Shown here in pieces: positions 20,241 to 56,412 of a DNA stretch of 64,000 nucleotides. Source of the stretch: Paracoccaceae bacterium (lineage in GTDB: Bacteria; Pseudomonadota; Alphaproteobacteria; Rhodobacterales; Rhodobacteraceae); contig OY282431.1 of assembly GCA_958296035.1 (NCBI GenBank), positions 1,243,001 to 1,307,000 on the forward strand, read 5' to 3'. The number at the start of each line of letters is the position of its first letter. The first letter of the stretch is position 1. Both the position numbers and the translations under genes were made by a program. The notes under the pieces are model-generated. The model had not been told where the DNA came from. It worked only from the letters and a program-made list of their open reading frames with translations, and ran no database searches.

Positions 20241-22242
20241 GTGCGCCGTGTTAAGGCGCGTTTATCCAGCGGGTGCGAATCCCGCGCAACAATTGTCGCT
20301 TCGGTTGGTAGCAGCCAGGGCGGTTTACGGAGGTAACGATGTAGATTGAAGCACTCTGGTGGCAAAGGGCTGCGTTAGGCAGCTCAGCGACCACGCAGGC
20401 CGGAACGTGAGTGAACGCCGAGCAGGCCTCGAAAAAGCGTGATGCAAGAGCCGACCCTACTGTGTTGAGGGGAAGGCCGATGGCGGATCGGGAAGCAAGC
20501 GACAAGGGCACCGGTTCGTACTCGCCGGGGTAATGGCGCTGGCATGTGTGGAAGAGGATAGACATCGCAACACGGGAAGCCCTGTCTGGCGGTTGTGCAC
20601 AGACCAAACCGGCGCCCCGCGAGGGGAAGGCCGGGCCGGCAGGGTGGCGGACAGGCCCGTAGTACCGGAGAAGCCGGGTAATGCCGGTGGAGGGAAGGGG
20701 CTTGACTTCGAGAGAGAGTAGACAAGGAGGCAAGGCATGACCACTGGTGAAAACCTAGCAGGGTCACAACGGGTTCGGAAACTCCAGACTGCTCTACATG
20801 CGAGCGCTACGGCGGATCCCGAGCGGCGCTTTCACGCCTTGATCGACAAGGTCTGGCGGATGGACTTTCTTCATGAGGCCTATAACCGGGTCCGCCGCAA
20901 TGGCGGTGTGTCGGGGGTTGATGGTGAGAGTTTCGAAGCCATCGAGGAGATCGGTGTGGAAGGTTGGCTTGAGGAGTTGTCGAGCGAGCTTCGGGACGGG
21001 ACCTATGTGCCGCGTGCGGTCCGTCGTGTTCTGATTCCGAAGAAGCAACCCGGAAAGTTCCGGCCCTTGGGCATTCCGTGCATCCGTGATCGGGTCGTCC
21101 AGACCTCGGCTTTGTTGGTAATGGAGCCGATCTTCGAGGCGGATCTGCGAGCGGAGCAGTATGCTTACAGGCCGGGGCGCAGTGCGCTGGATGCGGTGAA
21201 CCGTGTCCATCGTCTGTTGAACACGGGGCATAGAGAGATCGTAGATGGCGACTTGTCCAACTATTTCGGCGAGATACCGCATGCCGAGCTCATGAAGAGC
21301 GTGGCCCGTCGCATAAGCGACGGGCGGCTGCTTGGACTGATCAAGGCGTGGCTGGAGATGCCGGTAGAAGAGGATGACGGCGAGGGCGGCACGTGCCGCA
21401 CGAGGCGGGCTCGCAAGGAGAAGAAGGGAACCCCGCAAGGGGCGCCGATCTCTCCACTTCTAAGTAACATCTATATGCGCCGTTTCATACTGGGTTGGCA
21501 GGCGCTGGGCCATGCCTGGCGCTATAGTGCGGAGATCGTGAACTATGCGGATGATTTCTGCATCGTGGGTTGTGCACCGGCGGCAGAGATGCTGGCGGCG
21601 GCGGAGCGGCTGATGGTCAAGCTGAAGCTGGCGATCAATCCGCACAAGACGCGATGCCTGCGGTGTCCCGAGGACTCATTTGTGTTTCTGGGCTACCGCA
21701 TTGGGCGCAACTATCGTCCCAACGGCAGGGGGGCTTACATTGGCACCCGGCCGAGCAAGGCGAGCGTCCAGGGCATCTGCAGTCGGATCAGTGCGCAGAC
21801 GCATCGGCGTCATGTGGGACAGGATGCTGAAGAGATGGTGGAGCGGCTGAACCGGATGTTGTCCGGCTGGTCGCAGTATTTCCGTCTTGGACAGGTCAGT
21901 CCGTCCTACAGGGCGATAGATGCGCATGCCGCCGGGCGGCTGCGACGGTGGCTGTGTCGCAAGCACAAGGTACAGACCGGGAAGTATGTGCGCTTTTCGG
22001 AGCAGCAGTTGTGGGATCACTATGGTTTGCTGCGCCTTGTGCCGAAGACGAAGATGCTGCCGGGAGCGAAAGCATGTTCTCGTCGGAAAGCCGGATGCGG
22101 GAAAACTGCACGTCCGGTTTGATGAGCGGGGGTGAGGAAACGTATCTACGGTTCGGAACTGAGGCACTGGCACAGGGCGAAAGCTGCCAGCGAACGGCTA
22201 CTCCCCGGACCTGCGGATGGGCGCGCCTCCCCTCGACTCTAC
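20241..22242 (+). mobile_element. Group II intron inserted in IS982 transposase
   Basis: The 5' end GTGCGCCGTGTTAAGGCGCG matches the GUGYG class start. Domain V is at 22088-22120, with the AGC triad at 22089-22091, a GAAA-type loop and a CG bulge before TCCGGTT. A domain VI region follows, and the intron ends in AC at 22242 after CTCGACTCT. The boundaries are fixed by the host gene: exon 1 ends in codons for AFLH plus one base, and exon 2 begins TCCTGTCCTGC, giving AFLHILSCLVAYTLG when joined. That is the expected IS982 continuation. Length is 2002 bases. It encodes one reverse transcriptase, and all visible parts look functional. Confidence 0.88.
20737..22122 (+). CDS. ltrA: Group II intron reverse transcriptase/maturase
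   Basis: 461 residues with AAGGAGG upstream. The reverse-transcriptase blocks include RRVLIPKKQPGKFRPLGIP, VDGDLSNYFGEIPH with the first catalytic aspartate, GTPQGAPISPLLSNIY (231-246) and the YADD box at 270-273. The thumb/maturase domain follows, with LSGWSQYFRLG. No H-N-H endonuclease domain is present, so mobility would use priming from nascent DNA strands. Unusually, the frame continues through domain V of its own intron (last codons at 22088-22119) and stops at its end, giving a basic, cysteine-rich tail. The protein would splice and spread the surrounding intron. Confidence 0.93.
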   Translation: MTTGENLAGSQRVRKLQTALHASATADPERRFHALIDKVWRMDFLHEAYNRVRRNGGVSGVDGESFEAIEEIGVEGWLEELSSELRDGTYVPRAVRRVLIPKKQPGKFRPLGIPCIRDRVVQTSALLVMEPIFEADLRAEQYAYRPGRSALDAVNRVHRLLNTGHREIVDGDLSNYFGEIPHAELMKSVARRISDGRLLGLIKAWLEMPVEEDDGEGGTCRTRRARKEKKGTPQGAPISPLLSNIYMRRFILGWQALGHAWRYSAEIVNYADDFCIVGCAPAAEMLAAAERLMVKLKLAINPHKTRCLRCPEDSFVFLGYRIGRNYRPNGRGAYIGTRPSKASVQGICSRISAQTHRRHVGQDAEEMVERLNRMLSGWSQYFRLGQVSPSYRAIDAHAAGRLRRWLCRKHKVQTGKYVRFSEQQLWDHYGLLRLVPKTKMLPGAKACSRRKAGCGKTARPV

Positions 22243-38581: not shown

Positions 38582-41500
38582 ATGACTGAGAATGCCGCCG
38601 GACGAAAACGGTTTCGAAGATCCTACCGCAAGATTCCTGAGGTTATCGAGATGCCGAACCTCATTGAAATCCAGAAGGTGTCATATGAAAGGTTTCTGAG
38701 GTCCGGAACAGGGCCCGAACCAACCGATGGCGAGGGTATTCAAGGCGTATTCCAGTCGGTCTTTCCGATCAGAGATCCGAATGGCCTTTCCGAGTTGCAT
38801 TTTCTCGGCTACGAACTCGAACCACCACAGTTCGATGTTGACGAGTGTCAGCGGCGTGATGTGAGCTTTGCTGCCCCTCTCAAGGTCAATCTTCGTTTGA
38901 CGGTTTTCGACGTCGACAACGATTCCGGAGCACGGCAGATTCGCAATGTCAAGGAAAGGCGTGTCTATCTCGGCGATATACCTCTGATGACCGACAACGG
39001 AACGTTCATCATCAATGGCACCGAGCGCGTGGTTGTCTCGCAAATGCATCGGTCGCCCGGCGTATTCTTCAACTACTCGACGCACCAGTCGGGGAAGCGC
39101 CTGTACAATTGCCGGATTCTGCCTGGCCGCGGGGCCTGGATCGATTTCGAATTCAATCTGCGCAAGGACCGGGAACTTGGCGAGATTGAGTTCATCAATG
39201 TCCGCATCGATCGCAAACGCAAGCTGCTGGCCACAACATTGCTTTTTGCTCTCGGCATGGACCAGGAAGAAATCATGTCTTCCTTCTACCATTCCTCGAC
39301 ATTTCGGGCCGAGATCAGCAGCCAGGCCTGGGAATTCACGTTCCGCAGGCAACATTGGATGAACCGCACACCGATCGACGATCTAATCCTGGTGTCGTCC
39401 GGAGAGGTCGTGGCACCGGCTGGCCGGACGTTGACCGCAAGCTTGTTGGCAGACATAGATTTCGACGGCAAACTGGTCAGGATAGATCATTCGCCGAAAT
39501 TGAATCCGACAAGCCTGGCGCCCGACATGCCGGACCTGGTTCCAAACAATCCATTCGTGCAAGGATCGGTGCGCGAGAGCCGGCGCATTTCTGAGGATGG
39601 GCGTTACCTCGTCGAGGACCTGATTCCTGCTCGCTGGAACCGGGTGACGCCACGGTTCGACCTGTTCGATGCCCACAGCAATGCATTGCTCGCGGCGAAA
39701 GGGAAAAAGCTTACCCCAGCCAAGTTCAGAAAAGTCGAGAATCTTGACAACTGGGAGCTCTGGATTCCTCTCAACCCATTGTTGCGCCAAATGGCTCCGA
39801 AGGAAGGCCAGGAGGATCAGGACGAAAGCTTCAAGTTGCTGGCCGTCAATCGAGAAGCGCCCGTTTCAACGAGAAAGGTCTCGGCCGATGGCAAGTTTCT
39901 GGTCGACGAGTTCGTGGCCGACCGGTGGCAACTGTCAACACCCAAATACGACATTGTGGAGGGTGACACCGGTAAGAAGCTGGTCAGGGCAGGCAAGAAG
40001 GTTACCCGAAAACAGTATGCAGCCCTGTGCGAACGCGAGGGGTGGCAGTTGTGCTTCCCGATGGAGATGTTCTCATTCCAGACGACCAAGACCGATGACG
40101 GCAGCAATAGGTCATCTTCGGTCACCCTGACCCTCCAGGAGACTATCGAGGTCGATTCAGGTGAAAGCCTGACCAAGAACGGGAAGTATCTCCTCCAGTC
40201 TTTCGAAAGCAACAGTTGGCAGCAAACGGTGCCAACCCTGCCTATCATCCAGCACGAGACCGATGCGGTAGTCTGTCCGGCGAATCGAAAAATTACTGCT
40301 CACCGGCTGAGAATGCTCGAAAAGTACGTTGGATGGATCCTGTGCCGCCCCGTTGATCCGGTTCTCAGGATGTTGACTGAAGAGGATTACCTGGATCCCG
40401 AAACAGAGTCCGAAGCACTGAGGCTCGTGGCTGAGAGTGGCCAGATCTACGTGCAACCCGAGCAGAACATCGGTGCCGGTGAGTTCCTGGCCTCGGGGCG
40501 GGGAGCAGCTGGCAGGGTCTTGCCTGGCGGCGACCTTCTCTCGGTCGAAATGCAACGAAGAGTGTGGCGGTTTCGAAAGCCGAGCTTTGACATCATTGAT
40601 CCCGACAACAGAAAGATCGTCATCACGGTCGGTGAGGAAATCAATCTCAACCGGAACCGCTCGCTTGGTATCCATGACGGTACCCAGCCCTACTGCTTCA
40701 ACTATGACCAGCTTCTTCATGGTCTGATCGAACCAGATGAGGTGGCTGACAAGAGCCATTCGCAACTAACCAAGAAAGTCGCAGCAGATCCCGGCTATGA
40801 CCTGAACATGGTTACAGGACTGGGCGAGCGTTGCAGTATTTGCGCCTGCTCGGAGGGCGTAAGCCTTGTGGCCAACCATGTCGCCGGCAGGACCCGGTGG
40901 GTTGCTGATTATTCCTACGAGGACAAGGCCGGAACGGTCACCCAGGACAACCTCATTGATCGCCACACCGGCGAGCAGGTGCTGACCAAGGGCGCCCGCA
41001 TCTCGAGGCGCTTGATCGAACGCTGGAAGCAGGCAGGACGCCTGCTGGATTTTGAAACCTCAACCACCAACATAATTGGCCGGTTCATTGCCCGTGACCT
41101 TATCGACGAGGAAAACGGGGTGGTTCTTGCCGAGGCAGGTGACGAGATCACCGGTAGCGCCGACGCCAATGAAAATCCCGTCGACGGACTTCTGAAGACT
41201 CTGATCGACCACGGATACACAGAAATTCCGGTGCTTGATATCGACTACGTCAATGTCGGTCCCTACATGCGGGATACGATGGTCCTTGATCGCAGCTACA
41301 ATCGTGAGACCGGGCTGCTCGAAGTCTATCGCGTAATACGGCCGGGCGATCCGCCTGTGCTGGAGAATGCACTGGAATTGTTCAACCAGATGCTCCACGA
41401 CCCCGAACGCTATGATCTTTCGGCTGTGGGCAGGGTCAAGATGAACGAGCGACTGGCACTTGATGTCAGCGACTCGGTACGAGTTCTTCGCAAGGAAGAC

Positions 41501-44333: not shown

Positions 44334-49163
<4,830 letters not shown>

Positions 49164-49655
49164 AGTGAACGGTCACGATAAAGCTGCCAACCCTGATTTC
49201 GCTGGATTCCGGCGCGTGGCTGGCCGCCGTCGTCAGTAAGGGGCAGAAACAGGTCTTGAAACAGGCCCATTGACGGAATCGAGACGGTTGCCGGGATCCC
49301 GGTGTGCGGTTTTCGGGCTGCAATGACGTGCCCGGGAGGTCGCAGAGCCTGGTACGCCCTGGCGCTGTCTTGCGGATTGCAAGACCTGCGGCGGCCGGCC
49401 CGCGGGCATTGGCACGTGGGCCGGATGGAGAAAGAACATTGTCGGGTCGAGTAAGCGGCGGTTTCGAGGCAGCTTTCGAACCAACGCCTTGCCTGGGTCT
49501 GTTAACCAGGCAAAGCCGGTCACGAACCATACTTTCCCGACAGCCAACCCGTCAGGAGCATTTCCCGCTGCGGTCGATAACACGTCCGTAACCAAAGTTG
49601 AACTCTTGTACCGAAGGCGGTATGTGCACGCGGTGCAAGCTTGCGGGGACCATTG
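49164..49655. other. Spacer between rpoC and the DUF3035 gene
   Basis: About 490 bases with no recognised gene. A 12-base palindrome CCGGGATCCCGG is at 49291-49302, without a T-run. The spacer probably separates the rpo transcript from the lipoprotein-peptidase unit. Confidence 0.4.
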
Positions 49656-50192
49656 ATGAGTAGCCTTTTAAGACCAACATGTGCAGTGTTGACCATGCTG
49701 GTCATTGCAGCCGGCTGTTCTCGCGACGATGAAATGCCGGATCTCGTGCAGTATCGCTCTGTTTCTGGGCCCGATGAATTCAGTGTCGTTGTACATCCGC
49801 CCGTCGTCAAACCGACCGAGCGGACAGCAACACTTCCGCAACCGACTCCGGGTGCACCAGATCCCAGGCTTGTGGATCCAGGCAACCGCGCTGTGGCATT
49901 GCTGGGGGGCATTCCGCAAGACAAGGTCAATCCAGGTATCGCCGTGGAGCATGCGCCATTGATGACTCATATTGCCACTTTGGGCATGGAACCCGGCATC
50001 AGGGAGACATTGGCAAGCGAGGACCTGGCTTTTCGTCAGGGAAAAGGTGCCCGTCTTGTCGAACGAATGTTCTCCTACAGCACCTATTTCAGGGCTTACA
50101 GGCCAATGTTTCTTGACCCAGTGACGGAGTCCCGACGCCTGAGCAGCGCCGGTATCAACTCGACGCGCATACCCGGTTCGGGCGCCCGGTAG
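49656..50192 (+). CDS. DUF3035 lipoprotein
   Basis: 178 residues from ATG 49656. The N-terminal MSSLLRPTCAVLTMLVIAAGC is a lipoprotein signal with lipobox V-I-A-A-G-C, so the mature protein is acylated and anchored in a membrane. The remainder (PDLVQYRSVSGPDEFSVVVHPPV ... LP-x-P-T-P-G-A-P ... NRAVALLGG) matches the alphaproteobacterial DUF3035 family of unknown function. DUF3035 genes commonly sit beside two M16 peptidase genes, as here, which suggests envelope protein processing or quality control. Confidence 0.8.
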   Translation: MSSLLRPTCAVLTMLVIAAGCSRDDEMPDLVQYRSVSGPDEFSVVVHPPVVKPTERTATLPQPTPGAPDPRLVDPGNRAVALLGGIPQDKVNPGIAVEHAPLMTHIATLGMEPGIRETLASEDLAFRQGKGARLVERMFSYSTYFRAYRPMFLDPVTESRRLSSAGINSTRIPGSGAR

Positions 50193-50250
50193 TCAAGGGC
50201 GACTCAAGACGCAAGAGCGTACAGATGTGTTTTTCACACAGGGGAAATTC

Positions 50251-51759
50251 ATGACAAGTCACGAGTCGGTTTCGCGCCTGCCGACCTTCAACTGGAGTTC
50301 CAAACTGGAAATGTCTCCGTGCCGACGACGGCGCCCGCCAACTGTTCCGGCTTCTCGAACCAGGAATTCTCCTGCTTGCGGATCGGTTGTAGCTGATGTT
50401 TGTGCATTATTGCGCAGCTGGATGTTCAGTCTGACGATAAGTGCGACAGTACTTTTCTGGACCGGGCCGCTGCAGGCGCAACTGGCCGAAAACGTAACTG
50501 AATTCTATCTCGGCAACGGGATGCAAGTCGTCGTCATCGAAGACCACCGTGCGCCTGTTGTCAATCATACATTGTGGTACCGGGTCGGCTCGATCGACGA
50601 CCCGCCGGGCAAGTCCGGTCTGGCCCACTTTCTTGAGCACCTCATGTTCAAGAGCACCGAGGCGGTTGCGGCCGGTGAGTTTGAGCGACGCATTCGCATG
50701 CGTGGTGGCAGATCCGGGGCTTCGACTTCCCATGATTATTCGATGTACCGCGCACGCATTTTCAAGGACCATCTGGAAGAGATCATGCGGCTGGAGGCGG
50801 ACCGCATGCAAGGTCTGGTTCTGACCCAGGCCGAAATTAATACAGAGCGTGAAGTCATACTTGAGGAACGCAACCAGCGAATTGATTCCGACCCTACGAG
50901 TTTGCTGTATGAACAGATTGCGGCGGCGCTCTTCATGAATCACCCCTTCGGCAGGCCGGTGATTGGCTGGCGGCACGAAATGGAGGGACTTGGCCTTGAC
51001 GACGTGTTAAGTTTCTATCGCCGATACTACCGACCCGACAATGCCATTCTGGTTATCAGCGGCGATGTTACGGTAGAGCAGGTCCGAGAGCTCGCAGAAA
51101 GGCACTACGGCGTCCTTGAGGCCCCGGAAGGTCGCACGAAGCGGATGATTACCACGGAGCCGCCACACATTGCGGAGCGCCGTCTGACTATCAGGGACAG
51201 CAGGGTATCCAACCCATTTGTTATCCGTTCTTACCTTGCTCCCGAGGATTATCAGGGAGATCAGCACAAATTGGCTTCAATGGCAGTACTTGCCAATATT
51301 CTCGGTGGTTCGGGCATTACTTCTATTCTGGGCAAGACTCTGCAACTGGAACAGCAACTGGCGGCCTTCACAGGTGCCTATTACTCGGGCAGCGAGACGC
51401 GGCCCATAAGACTGGTGCTGTATGTAGTCCCGCAACCGGAACATTCACTGTCCGAGGCCGAGGAAGCGCTGGATGGAGTGCTTGAGGCATTGCTGGAGGA
51501 GGGAATTGACGAGGACCACCTCCGGCGCATCAAGGTTCAGTTACGTTACAGCGAGATCTATGAGCTCGACGAATCCATGAACAGCGCCCTGAAGTTTGGC
51601 CGGGGCCTCGTGCAAGGAATTCCCGTGGAACAGATACTTTCATGGCCCGAGGCGCTGCAGAAGGTTGAGACACAGGATGTTCTGGAGGCCGCACAGTTGC
51701 TTTTGGATCGCCGGCGTTCGGTGACCGCCAGGCTGCTCGACGATAAGATGGAATCATGA
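50251..51759 (+). CDS. M16 family zinc metallopeptidase, catalytic partner
   Basis: 502 residues from ATG 50251, seven bases after AGGGGA. A hydrophobic stretch at about 57-75 (WMFSLTISATVLFW) is probably a signal or anchor, preceded by an unusually long basic leader. An internal start at ATG 50422 would give a shorter signal. The inverted zinc motif H-x-x-E-H is present as H126-F-L-E129-H130 in LAHFLEHLMFKST, with the downstream glutamates in EREVILEERNQR. The C-terminal M16 domain follows. It should form a heterodimer with the next gene product, degrading peptides in the periplasm. Confidence 0.9.
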   Translation: MTSHESVSRLPTFNWSSKLEMSPCRRRRPPTVPASRTRNSPACGSVVADVCALLRSWMFSLTISATVLFWTGPLQAQLAENVTEFYLGNGMQVVVIEDHRAPVVNHTLWYRVGSIDDPPGKSGLAHFLEHLMFKSTEAVAAGEFERRIRMRGGRSGASTSHDYSMYRARIFKDHLEEIMRLEADRMQGLVLTQAEINTEREVILEERNQRIDSDPTSLLYEQIAAALFMNHPFGRPVIGWRHEMEGLGLDDVLSFYRRYYRPDNAILVISGDVTVEQVRELAERHYGVLEAPEGRTKRMITTEPPHIAERRLTIRDSRVSNPFVIRSYLAPEDYQGDQHKLASMAVLANILGGSGITSILGKTLQLEQQLAAFTGAYYSGSETRPIRLVLYVVPQPEHSLSEAEEALDGVLEALLEEGIDEDHLRRIKVQLRYSEIYELDESMNSALKFGRGLVQGIPVEQILSWPEALQKVETQDVLEAAQLLLDRRRSVTARLLDDKMES

Positions 51760-53057
51760 CTATGAGACTACTGTGGTGGTCGGCAATTCTGTTCCTCTGG
51801 ATACAGGGTGCACTGGCGGCAATTGACATACAGGAGTTCGAGACCCCGGAGGGCACTTCGGGATGGCTCGTCGAGGACCACTCGATTCCGTTTGTAGCCA
51901 TTGAGCTTCGATTTCGGGGGGGCGCGGCCGGTGATCCGGACACGGAAGCCGGCGCGACACATCTCATGATGGCGCTTCTGGAAGAAGGGGCTGCCGAAAT
52001 GGATGCGGTCGAATTCAGCGAACGGTCTGAAACGCTGGGGGCGCGGTTCGACTTCGACACCCAGGTTGAATCGGTTTCGGTTGGCGCGCAGATTCTCACC
52101 GAAAACCGGGATGAGTCCCTGGCCCTCTTGCGGGCCGCTCTGCACCAGCCCCGCTTCGACGCGGTTGCAGTGGAGCGGGTTCGCAAGCAGGTTGAGGCGA
52201 TCATTGCGGCCAATTTGAAGGATCCGGAGGAAATTGCCGATGCGGAGTTTCGGCAAATCCTGTTTGGTGACCACATCTATGCGCGCGGGATTGAGGGCAC
52301 CTCTGAGACAGTAGCGGGCCTAAACGCCGAAGTTCTGCGCAGGTCTCACCGGCGAGCACTGACCCGAGACAGAGTTGTCGTCGGCGCGGCCGGTGACATA
52401 ACGGTCGATGAATTGGCCACGGTTGTCGACTACCTGCTGCAGGGTTTCCCCGGCACCGCGCACGACATGCCTGCTGCCCCCGCGATCCGGACCATTGCCG
52501 GGCGGACACATGTCGAGTTTCCATCGCCTCAGTCCGAGGTTGTGTTCGGACATGAAGGGATTCGCTTCAACGACGACGATTTCCTGGCTGCCTACGTTGT
52601 GAACCAGGTTCTTGGCGGCTCGGGATTCCGGGCCCGCCTGCAACGCTCGGTGCGTGTTGAGCGAGGACTGACCTACGGCATTTATTCTGGATTGCGGACA
52701 CTTCTGAACGCTGGCATCGTGTGGGGACAGTTTGCCAGCAGCAACGAAACAGCCGGGGAAGCCATTGCGGTCGTGCAGGACGAATGGCGCCGCATTGCCA
52801 GGAGTGGTATAACGCAGGAGGAACTTGATCATATCAAGCTGTATCTGATCGGTTCCTATCCTCTGCGCTTCGATGGCAACGCAACGATCGCCAGGATACT
52901 CGCAAACATGCAGTATTTCGACATGCCGGCTTCATATGTCGCACAGCGCAACAGCCTGGTGGAGGCACTGACACTGGTAGAAGTCAACAGAGTGGCGCGC
53001 GAGCTTTATGATCCCGAACGACTCTACTTCGTGTCCGTAGGCCAGCAGGTGGAATAG
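51756..53057 (+). CDS. M16 family protein, non-catalytic partner
   Basis: 433 residues with a signal peptide (MRLLWWSAILFLWIQGALA). It has the M16 fold, but at the zinc site reads GATHLMMALLEEG instead of H-x-x-E-H, so it cannot hold the metal. The R-x-Y pair used for substrate binding is present in VERGLTYGIYSG. Catalytic/non-catalytic M16 pairs are common, with the second subunit completing the chamber. The start overlaps the first M16 gene by four bases (ATGA), indicating coupled translation. Confidence 0.9.
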   Translation: MTMRLLWWSAILFLWIQGALAAIDIQEFETPEGTSGWLVEDHSIPFVAIELRFRGGAAGDPDTEAGATHLMMALLEEGAAEMDAVEFSERSETLGARFDFDTQVESVSVGAQILTENRDESLALLRAALHQPRFDAVAVERVRKQVEAIIAANLKDPEEIADAEFRQILFGDHIYARGIEGTSETVAGLNAEVLRRSHRRALTRDRVVVGAAGDITVDELATVVDYLLQGFPGTAHDMPAAPAIRTIAGRTHVEFPSPQSEVVFGHEGIRFNDDDFLAAYVVNQVLGGSGFRARLQRSVRVERGLTYGIYSGLRTLLNAGIVWGQFASSNETAGEAIAVVQDEWRRIARSGITQEELDHIKLYLIGSYPLRFDGNATIARILANMQYFDMPASYVAQRNSLVEALTLVEVNRVARELYDPERLYFVSVGQQVE

Positions 53058-54294: not shown

Positions 54295-56412
54295 ATGGCC
54301 CGTGAATTCCCGCTTTCCCGGTACCGGAACTTTGGAATCATGGCGCATATCGACGCCGGAAAGACAACGACAACCGAACGGGTGCTCTATTACACGGGGA
54401 AGTCCCACAAGATTGGCGAAGTTCATGACGGCGCCGCCACCATGGACTGGATGGAACAGGAGCAGGAACGCGGGATCACGATAACGTCGGCCGCAACCAC
54501 GACCTTGTGGGCCCGCACCGAGGAAGGCAAGTCACCGCAATCGGAGTTGTTCAGATTCAATATCATCGACACGCCGGGCCATGTTGACTTTACCATCGAG
54601 GTAGAGCGCTCACTGGCCGTACTCGACGGCGCCATTTGCGTACTGGATGCCAATGCGGGCATCGAACCGCAAACCGAAACGGTGTGGAGGCAGGCTGACC
54701 GCTACAAGGTCCCCCGTTTTGTATTCGTCAACAAAATGGACAAGATTGGCGCCGATTTCTTCAATTGCGTCGGCATGATCCGGCGCCGCACCGGCGCCGT
54801 GCCGCTCGTCATTCAACTGCCGATCGGTGCCGAAAACAGTTTCGAAGGCATAATCGATCTGGTGACCATGCGCCAGTGGACATGGTCGGGAGAAGACCTC
54901 GGGGCAAGCTGGAAAGTCGAGGAAATCCGCCCGCAATATGCAGACAGTGCCGCCGAATGGCGAGCGCGTATGGTCGAGACAGCTGTCGAGTTGGATGATC
55001 AGGCCGTTGAGCGTTATCTGGACGGCGAAGAGCCGGATCAGCAAACGTTGAGAAGCCTGATTCGCAAGGGGACACTTGACATGTGCTTTGTCCCGGTGCT
55101 GGCTGGCTCGGCCTTCAAGAACAAGGGCGTCCAACCCTTGCTCAACGCCGTAATCGACTATCTGCCTGGTCCGCTCGACGTGCCGCCCTATGTCGGTTTT
55201 CTGCCTGGCGACAAGACTGAAACACGCAACATCAAGCGCACCGCTGATGACAACCAGCCGCTGTCAGCGCTGGCATTCAAGGTGATGAATGATCCATTCG
55301 TCGGCTCTCTGACCTTTGCCCGTGTCTATTCGGGGACCATCAGGAGAGGCGAGCAGATGCTGAACTCGACCAAGAGCCGAAGGGAACGCATAGGCCGCAT
55401 GGTCATGATGCATTCCAACAACCGCGAGGAGATCAACGAAGCGTTTGCGGGCGACATCATCGCTTTGGCCGGACTGAAGATGACGACAACCGGTGATACG
55501 CTGTGCAGTGCAACCGAACCGGTTGTGCTGGAAACCATGACCTTTCCGGAATCTGTCATAGAAATTGCAGTCGAGCCAAAGACCAGGCTGGATCAGGAAA
55601 AGATGGGGCAGGCGCTTCAGCGTCTGGCAGCGGAAGATCCGTCATTCCGTGTCGAGTCCGACCCCGAGTCCGGTCAGACAATCATGAAGGGAATGGGCGA
55701 GTTACATCTCGACATCCTGATTGACCGCATGAAACGTGAATTCAAGGTCGAGGCAAATATCGGTGCCCCGCAAGTGGGTTATCGGGAAACAGTCTCCCGT
55801 CTTGCCCGGGTCGACCATACACACAAGAAACAGACCGGCGGTGCCGGCCAGTTCGCGCGCGTGAAGTTACTGGTTGAACCGACCGAAACGGGGCAGGGCT
55901 TCAGTTTCGAATCACTGGTTGTCGGTGGATCAATTCCCAAGGAATACATCCCAGGCGTCGAAAAGGGCGTTCAATCTGTAATGGAGTCGGGTCCGGTGGC
56001 GGGATTTCCGGTGATAGACGTCAGCGTCAAGCTGCTGGACGGTGCCTACCACGAGGTTGATTCGTCGGTTATGGCGTTTGAATTGGCCGGGCGCGCTGCC
56101 ATGCGCGAGGGTCTTCAGCGAGCCGGCGCCAGGTTGCTTGAACCTGTCATGAAGGTGGAGGTCGTCACGCCGGCGCAGTACACAGGTGGCGTCAATGGTG
56201 ATTTGACCAAACGCCGCGGCCAGGTACAGGGCCAGGAGCCGCGCGGGGCAATTACCGCCATCTACGCCCTCGTACCGCTCGCCAACATGTTTGGCTATAT
56301 TAACAATCTGCGCTCACTGACATCGGGGCGCGCCAGTTTCACAATGCAATTCTCACACTATGAATCGGTTCCACGCACTATTTCCGAGGAAATTCAGGCG
56401 AGATATGCCTGA
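54295..56412 (+). CDS. fusA: Elongation factor G
   Basis: 705 residues, about ten more than average. GTPase motifs are [19 protein letters not shown] (G1), ITITSAATT (G2), DTPGHVDF (G3) and [10 protein letters not shown] (G4). Domains II-V follow, with [11 protein letters not shown] in domain IV. It drives translocation of tRNA and mRNA on the ribosome. GGAG is eight bases before the ATG. Confidence 0.97.

Follow-up and report, generated by a model that had tools for sequence, protein, structure and literature searches.

Multiplied insert modules in the beta, beta' and sigma70 subunits of RNA polymerase in one genus of Rhodobacteraceae

The RNA polymerase beta subunit (RpoB) encoded in a 64,000-nucleotide stretch of a Paracoccaceae bacterium genome (assembly GCA_958296035.1, contig OY282431.1, positions 1,243,001 to 1,307,000; hereafter the window) carries a multiplied insert in its lobe, and two other subunits of the same holoenzyme are enlarged as well. 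The lobe insert, beta-i4 (SI1), contains six modules of the type that makes up one half of the ordinary insert. Within the genus, the inserts of beta, of beta' (RpoC), and of the primary sigma factor, sigma70 (RpoD), grew in the same lineage, although not in strict lockstep, and no match to DksA was found. The extra residues come to about 1,830 per holoenzyme (1911 + 1609 + 1758 for beta, beta', and sigma70, compared to 1377 + 1412 + 659 in relatives). These data suggest that transcription control in this genus was rebuilt. Tandem lobe modules were already known in kind, and the surprising part is the change of the whole holoenzyme rather than the beta array alone. We found no publication on a genus-wide multiplication of beta, beta', and sigma70 inserts with DksA missing among the titles and abstract openings searched, in which subscription papers were thinly covered.

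Tandem modules in the lobe of the beta subunit

A sequence-only reading of the window had placed the excess of the 1911-residue RpoB at residues 259-830 and had described it as a repeat of SI1-like units. The excess was found there, residues 259-830 corresponding exactly to positions 39356-41071. The repetition was also real, but the repeating unit was half of an SI1 (one BBM2 of about 60 residues) plus a variable linker of about 35-50 residues, not a whole SI1. Ordinary RpoB, which had been thought to carry one or two such units, has one bracket 1 and one bracket 2. We compared the six units of that reading with each other by Smith-Waterman alignment (15 pairs) against 500 shuffles. Nine of the 15 pairs were matched by no more than 1 of 500 shuffles, the strongest being units 2/4, 2/3, 3/4, and 3/5 (z of 13-17), and pairs 1/6, 3/6, and 5/6 were matched by 3 or 4. 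The weak pairs 2/6, 1/5, and 4/6 were reached by 11, 28, and 152 shuffles, respectively. The six tryptophans proposed to lead the units (259, 352, 449, 546, 662, and 773) are at those positions; however, they do not all share one register, because W773 aligns in the module alignment with an earlier, in-strand tryptophan (W250 of module 1), unlike the other five.

Hidden Markov models (HMMs) of the first half of ordinary beta-i4, bracket 1 (53-60 residues), and of its second half, bracket 2 (49-62 residues), were built from 100 RpoBs of proteobacteria outside the genus, a set that contains no genus sequence and in which G022 is represented by two entries, L014 and L160. The profile tests omitted L002 and L005-L009, which are duplicates of other genus loci. 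The bracket-1 HMM gave six matches in the window RpoB, from 8.2 to 25.6 bits, compared to 2.7 bits for the best of 200 shuffled inserts. The bracket-2 HMM matched the ordinary second half of the insert (Table 1; best of 200 shuffles, 1.8 bits), where the bracket-1 HMM gave a cross-match of 7.2 bits. Among the 100 ordinary RpoBs, which are the training set itself, the bracket-1 HMM reached at least 8 bits once in 35 and twice in 65, and never more; the second match was taken to be bracket 2. By these profile matches, the array is six bracket-1 modules, one BBM2 each, followed by an ordinary bracket 2, or seven BBM2 in all, and the serial internal duplication of SI1-type modules proposed earlier is supported. 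A chance repeat was rejected by shuffle tests on the beta modules and, as described below, on those of the beta' insert SI3 and of the sigma70 non-essential or non-conserved region (NCR).

The array is located in the beta2 lobe, at the position of E. coli residues 225-343, and ordinary relatives align to the window RpoB only at residues 1 to about 295 and from 772 onward. Rpb2 domains 1, 2, 3, 45, 6, and 7 each scored above their Pfam cut-offs. In the predicted structure, modules 1, 2, 3, and 6 have the order strand, helix, strands, helix, strand, which is less complete in module 4. The predicted local distance difference test (pLDDT) by block was 76-96 for module 1, 80-85 for module 2, 46-73 for module 3, 56-76 for module 4, 29-52 for module 5, and 80-92 for module 6. 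A TGD/E motif has been described for the BEAN domains of RNAP-beta (PMC11515920); when we read the sequence and alignment for motifs of this type, module 6 had TGE, module 1 SGE, and module 3 TGK, and none was present in modules 2, 4, and 5 or in the bracket 2 of the window RpoB. A phmmer search of the insert against solved structures returned a single match at E <0.001, covering the last module and bracket 2, and in structure searches with the predicted models (Foldseek and VIA) known RNA polymerases, matched as entire lobes and jaws, dominated the lists. Foreign DNA was rejected as a source of the insert, since the GC content of the module region (0.560) was close to that of the rest of rpoB (0.574) and of the window (0.564). 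On the sequence evidence, the anatomy of the multiplied inserts, here and in the other two subunits, is close to certain.

Table 1. Features of rpoB and rpoC in the window (positions are those of the window)
Feature	Position	Strand	Residues	Evidence
rpoB, RNA polymerase beta with expanded beta-i4/SI1, 1911 residues	38582..44317	+		single open frame, no internal stop
Bracket-1 (BBM2) module 1	39329..39484	+	250-301	ordinary bracket-1 HMM, 11.0 bits
Stretch without counterpart in ordinary family RpoB	39467..40897	+	296-772	comparison with relatives, alignment
Module 2	39611..39751	+	344-390	bracket-1 HMM, 24.0 bits
Module 3 (window and G003)	39902..40033	+	441-484	bracket-1 HMM, 25.6 bits
Module 4 (window and G003)	40196..40327	+	539-582	bracket-1 HMM, 16.3 bits
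Module 5	40541..40669	+	654-696	bracket-1 HMM, 8.2 bits; low-confidence predicted structure
Module 6, adjoining ordinary bracket 2	40898..41056	+	773-825	bracket-1 HMM, 14.8 bits
Bracket 2, ordinary second half of beta-i4	41066..41251	+	829-890	bracket-2 HMM, 58.8 bits
rpoC, beta' with expanded SI3, 1609 residues	44334..49163	+		single open frame; Rpb1 domains 1-5 above Pfam cut-off
Extra SI3 stretch	47541..48080	+	1070-1249	180 residues absent in L163 (ordinary relative)
Extra SBHM copy A	47595..47774	+	1088-1147	SBHM1 HMM, 18.0 bits
Extra SBHM copy B (window and G003)	47919..48041	+	1196-1236	SBHM1 HMM, 9.7 bits

After trimming of starts and exclusion of truncated RpoBs, RpoB was 1745 residues long in genus genomes G002, G007, and G008, 1742 in G006, and 1752 in G004, compared to 1342-1451 in the 100 RpoBs from outside the genus. 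The G003 RpoB is split over two contigs but aligned over its full length with the six-module layout, and its core is 89% identical to that of the window RpoB. The rpoB of G001 is in two broken pieces and that of G005 is without its middle. The expansion is thus common to six other genus genomes, with six copies or with three by profile and one by position, which excludes an assembly error. The window genome itself resembles a metagenome assembly (95% complete, 3.7% contaminated); however, given its single contig of 3.64 Mb, the full or nearly full rpoB in those six genomes, the purifying selection described below, and the shuffle tests, the probability that the expansion reflects a chance repeat or an error of assembly or binning is negligible.

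Very long RpoBs were searched for outside the genus, and within the samples covered the expansion was seen in the one genus only. An N-terminal RpoB match was present in 270 of the 295 genomes of the family sample; the longest open frames outside the genus among the matches listed (G275, 1602; G022, 1550; and G302, 1503) were rejected because they were 1377-1380 residues once properly started. For the class, 147 of 153 genomes matched, and no extra bracket 1 was present in the four longest frames among the matches listed, other than that of the window genome. One of these (G357, 1734) has an upstream reading frame ahead of an ordinary RpoB, and the others (G413, 1604; G362, 1571; and G415, 1502) are enlarged otherwise. 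For the phylum, 153 of 160 genomes matched, and none of the matches listed exceeded 1466 apart from the window genome and G357. Some of these alphaproteobacterial RpoBs have features of their own: L169 (from G413) and L170 (from G362) are apparently enlarged near the lobe with only one bracket 1, and L171 (from G415) has a long insertion in its N-terminal part, ahead of the lobe. A genome of the same class, G366, has a second, divergent RpoB-like frame of 1096 residues and 34% identity (C103:29315-29806), perhaps a contamination.

We built a tree from the C-terminal core of RpoB (52 rows) by a quick method without bootstrap, in which some branches are long, including that of G005. The nine genus rows formed one clade (SH-aLRT 99) with the window and G003 together (100), and G022, whose RpoB (1377 residues) and RpoC (1410 residues) are both ordinary, was its sister (98). 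The genus and G022 fell inside a group holding Shimia, Celeribacter, Sulfitobacter, and Fluviibacterium, and on its named neighbours we call the family Rhodobacteraceae-like. The genus is on a long branch of 0.39 changes per column, indicating that the RpoB core itself also evolved fast. Two other alignments of the analysis (59 and 42 sequences) covered a hand-picked part of the sequences at hand.

By position, the five shorter genus RpoBs hold modules 1, 2, 5, and 6. Modules 3 and 4 (residues of about 424-626) occur in addition in the window and G003, and both were missing from L151, L154, L157, L158, and L159 in the alignment. With G003 set aside, window modules 1, 2, 5, and 6 were closest to their positional counterparts in G007 or G004 (41, 52, 41, and 31% identity), and module 3 was closest to module 2 of G007 (39%). 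We read this as an array that arose by stepwise tandem duplication within the gene. Alternatively, modules 3 and 4 could have been lost in the shorter genus members.

The ratio of nonsynonymous to synonymous changes (dN/dS) in the module region was 0.15 and 0.17 (G007 compared with G008 or G002; dS 0.18-0.25), with 0.03-0.04 in the core. Six pairs of other bacteria, in which two genomes were used twice, gave 0.13, 0.13, 0.17, 0.21, 0.22, and 0.35 for the ordinary beta-i4 and 0.00-0.11 for cores. The extra modules are therefore kept about as strictly as the ordinary beta-i4, and the beta modules are under purifying selection like it. Between the window and G003, dS was about 1.6, near saturation, and dN/dS for this pair is not for close reading. 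Together with conservation across the clade, the purifying selection favors the earlier view that the core is intact and the protein probably functional.

Enlarged beta' and sigma70 and the absence of DksA

The sequence-only reading, made from the window alone, did not mention the enlarged beta', and the changes in sigma70 and DksA are not visible there. In RpoC, the extra residues fall between conserved flanks within SI3, the insert between the halves of the trigger loop. The SI3 region compared was 453-471 residues in 73 RpoCs from outside the genus, 565-575 in G002 and G004-G008, 638 in G003, and 641 in the window. An SBHM1 HMM built from 73 ordinary RpoCs (best of 200 shuffles, 2.5 bits) found one extra SBHM in G002, G004, G005, G006, G007, and G008, at 25.3-32.0 bits, whereas the window (copies A and B) and G003 (21.2 and 9.4 bits) had two each. 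The extra modules were predicted to be strand-rich, with a block pLDDT of 70-95 in a model with a mean of 80.9. Outside the genus, the RpoC of Marichromatium gracile (L100) is 1506 residues as trimmed with an ordinary SI3 region of 463, and is either enlarged elsewhere or mis-trimmed.

RpoD open frames with unbroken matches were 1565-1812 residues in 8 of the 9 genus genomes and 650-803 in 15 of the 16 others, the sixteenth being broken. When trimmed, the eight genus proteins were 1562-1792 residues compared to 659-675 for five from the family; that of the window genome is 1758 from the first ATG (L172:714-5990). This protein has sigma regions 1.1, 1.2, 2, 3, and 4 above the Pfam cut-offs, and the primary sigma model TIGR02393 gave 385.8 bits. 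In a second genus RpoD (L178), region 1.1 was under the cut-off (16.2 compared to 22.5 bits) and the remaining regions were above. An NCR HMM trained on five family RpoDs (best of 200 shuffles, 2.1 bits) matched five times in the RpoDs of the window genome, G003, and G005, and four times in those of G002, G004, G006, G007, and G008, the weakest copy being 9.2 bits in the window genome and 7.7 bits in G006. One copy sits between regions 1.1 and 1.2. With the Pfam model Sigma70_ner, two genus RpoDs had three matching stretches apiece and a family RpoD had a single one. The extra NCR copies had dN/dS of 0.07-0.26 (two pairs).

Copies of bracket 1, SBHM, and NCR numbered 6, 4, and 5 in the window genome and G003, and 4, 3, and 4 in G002, G004, G006, G007, and G008. 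At the level of sequence, each insert demonstrably grew by repeated duplication of its own module, in steps of 1 to 4 to 6 for bracket 1, 2 to 3 to 4 for SBHM, and 1 to 4 to 5 for NCR.

Neither the zinc-finger family model PF01258 nor TIGR02420, the model for full DksA, had a match in any of the 9 genus genomes (completeness 79-98%), and both were above cut-off in all 16 others. DksA was very probably lost in the genus. SpoT/RelA was matched in all 9 genus genomes, 8 of them above cut-off, and was 743-772 residues in seven unbroken genes compared to 695-801 outside the genus. GreA open frames were 157-170 residues in 7 of the 9, with 277 in G000 and 260 in G005. A second member of the sigma70 family, presumably RpoH, was 300-325 residues in the 8 genus genomes where it was listed. 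The window EF-G is 705 residues, and two open reading frames 5' of rpoB, which we take to encode ribosomal proteins L1 and L10, are 231 and 171. A general inflation of proteins was rejected on these few proteins (SpoT, GreA, the second sigma, EF-G, L1, and L10).

Ribosomal-protein genes usually lie directly 3' of rpoC. In the window, positions 49641-53057, between rpoC and the EF-G gene (54295-56412), contain a small open reading frame and two M16-peptidase genes identified by Pfam (50227-51759 and 51756-53057). A group II intron reverse transcriptase/maturase (RVT_1 and GIIM) is present at 20737-22122.

What the enlarged inserts may do

The most likely function is a built-in clasp that would hold open complexes without DksA; we consider the chances of our explanation as a whole about even. 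The downstream-DNA and secondary channels of the E. coli enzyme are flanked by beta-i4 and SI3, which would serve TraR (and DksA) as handles for swinging the lobe, whereas CedA connects beta-i4 with sigma70 and keeps the melted DNA locked in. In the genus, the beta-i4 arm, SI3, and the sigma70 domains, all enlarged, would meet across the cleft, and the joined arms would act like CedA or the SI3-sigma arch (both described below) in holding open complexes. The clasp would also cover or replace the DksA site. We infer the physical contact, the open-complex effect, and the cause and order of the changes from the modules, copy numbers, co-occurrence, constraint, and DksA absence observed above, and rate this mechanism a little under even. 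A wider proposal is that the genus rebuilt its initiation machine, such that beta lobe, trigger-loop insert, and sigma70 form an intramolecular clasp and DksA-type control became obsolete, a second solution independent of that in cyanobacteria and built differently. That proposal is speculative and rather unlikely.

Several observations weigh against the clasp and the coordinated growth behind it. G005 has five NCR copies but three SBHM (one extra). The third NCR copy of G003 scored 1.2 bits, under the best shuffle, so the NCR count of that genome rests on position. G003 modules 4 and 5 were weak (3.6 and 5.0 bits), and the module-5 counterpart in the five shorter RpoBs, at -3.8 to 1.2 bits, did not reach the best shuffle, so its placement rests on the alignment to module 5 (41% identity for G007). 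The linkers between beta modules had a pLDDT <50, and the array may therefore be a flexible string rather than a rigid arm. Little net charge is carried by beta 296-772 (-5), the extra SI3 (+5), or sigma 540-1530 (+16). GreA, also a secondary-channel user, was above cut-off in all 9 genus genomes, so the secondary channel cannot be wholly shut. Finally, the dN/dS values demonstrate only retention of folds.

A rival reading is a neutral ratchet, in which DksA was lost first, its surfaces became unconstrained, and duplications were tolerated that could not be shed later, the arms having no new function beyond folding. Few parts have changed as fast as the modules (60% identity between the window and G003, compared to 88-90% in the core), the genus is on a long branch in the RpoB core, and the three genes are out of perfect step in G005; deletion of beta-i4 in E. 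coli is also tolerated, with growth defects (PMC2939025). However, the growth involved three separate genes of one lineage and recurred in the branch that comprises the window and G003. The dN/dS values are far under 1 and resemble those for ordinary beta-i4, and the additional residues carry a cost in every holoenzyme. Taken together, we regard the ratchet as improbable, yet a rival to be taken seriously.

The beta array could instead be a multivalent docking array in which each extra bracket 1 binds a factor that docks on beta-i4, as UvrD and CedA do in E. coli, such that several copies of a repair or regulatory factor are carried. The copies are only 12-29% identical within the window RpoB, which gives no clear sign of a common docking surface being retained, and docking leaves SI3, sigma70, and DksA unexplained; this is an unlikely reading. 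A shield against phage-encoded polymerase inhibitors, or against TraR-like factors, with SI1, SI3, and the secondary channel as the points of attack, is less probable still. TraR does work through SI1 and SI3 (PMC6970531), and phage TraR homologues are reported to reprogram host transcription (PMC9239242), but no diversifying selection was seen in the module region.

The built-in clasp remains our preferred reading. Whatever the function, lineage-specific inserts of RNA polymerase are usually handled singly, as fixed traits of major lineages. In this case a similar process altered three large holoenzyme inserts inside a single genus, its steps can be mapped onto a tree, and the changes coincide with the absence of a factor that uses two of the inserts. 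The genus is a natural experiment on the purpose of SI1, SI3, and the sigma NCR, a long-open question. The trade-off between insert size and secondary-channel factors that has been argued for cyanobacteria (PMC10802570, preprint) becomes testable elsewhere.

Comparison with known systems

The sequence-only reading knew of no described RpoB with this architecture, which proved too strong. Beta-i4 inserts with one to six tandem BBM2 have been predicted (Iyer; Lane and Darst, cited in Opalka et al. 2010, PMC2939025), and seven BBM2 is slightly past that range. An RNAP-beta "type 4*" with additional multidomain insertions is mentioned for Armatimonadetes (Alvarez-Carreno et al. 2024, PMC11515920); the window RpoB fits this wording (a type 4 BEAN with additional multidomain insertions) in a comparison by description only. 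The window RpoB is like these in that lobe modules were multiplied in tandem in some lineages. It is unlike them in that the expansion is in one genus among the samples, in an otherwise ordinary family, and is accompanied by the changes in SI3, sigma70, and DksA.

E. coli beta-i4/SI1 (beta dispensable region 1; a BBM2 pair; BEAN, PDB 3lti) shares the insertion site, has homologous sequence, and has the same secondary-structure order as the window modules where the model is confident. It consists of two BBM2, whereas the window RpoB has seven (six of bracket-1 type and bracket 2) with long linkers. The multiplied sigma70 copies of the genus match the ordinary NCR domain (Sigma70_ner, PF04546); an ordinary RpoD has one copy, and the genus has four or five, one of them between regions 1.1 and 1.2.

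In E. coli, lobe-SI1 and SI3 flank the downstream channel, and TraR engages SI3 and turns lobe-SI1 through roughly 18 degrees; without SI1, activation by TraR is almost lost (PMC6970531). CedA binds beta-i4 and reaches sigma70 region 1.2, tying the lobe to sigma, and it stabilizes open complexes and opposes DksA (PMC10803263). The outcome we propose would be the same, with the lobe tied to sigma and DksA countered; CedA is a separate small protein, whereas the link in the genus would be built into the subunits. The multi-SBHM SI3 of cyanobacteria makes an arch with sigma that stabilizes open complexes (PMC10120043), and it covers the Gre/DksA site in bacteria from which Gre/DksA factors are absent (PMC10802570). 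Cyanobacterial SI3 (8 or 9 SBHM) is like that of the genus in having several SBHM and a missing secondary-channel factor. In cyanobacteria SI3 contacts sigma region 2 across the cleft, and a contact with sigma in the genus would be a prediction of the clasp. Unlike cyanobacteria, the genus has kept GreA, its SI3 has 4 SBHM in the window, and its beta-i4 and sigma70 are enlarged too.

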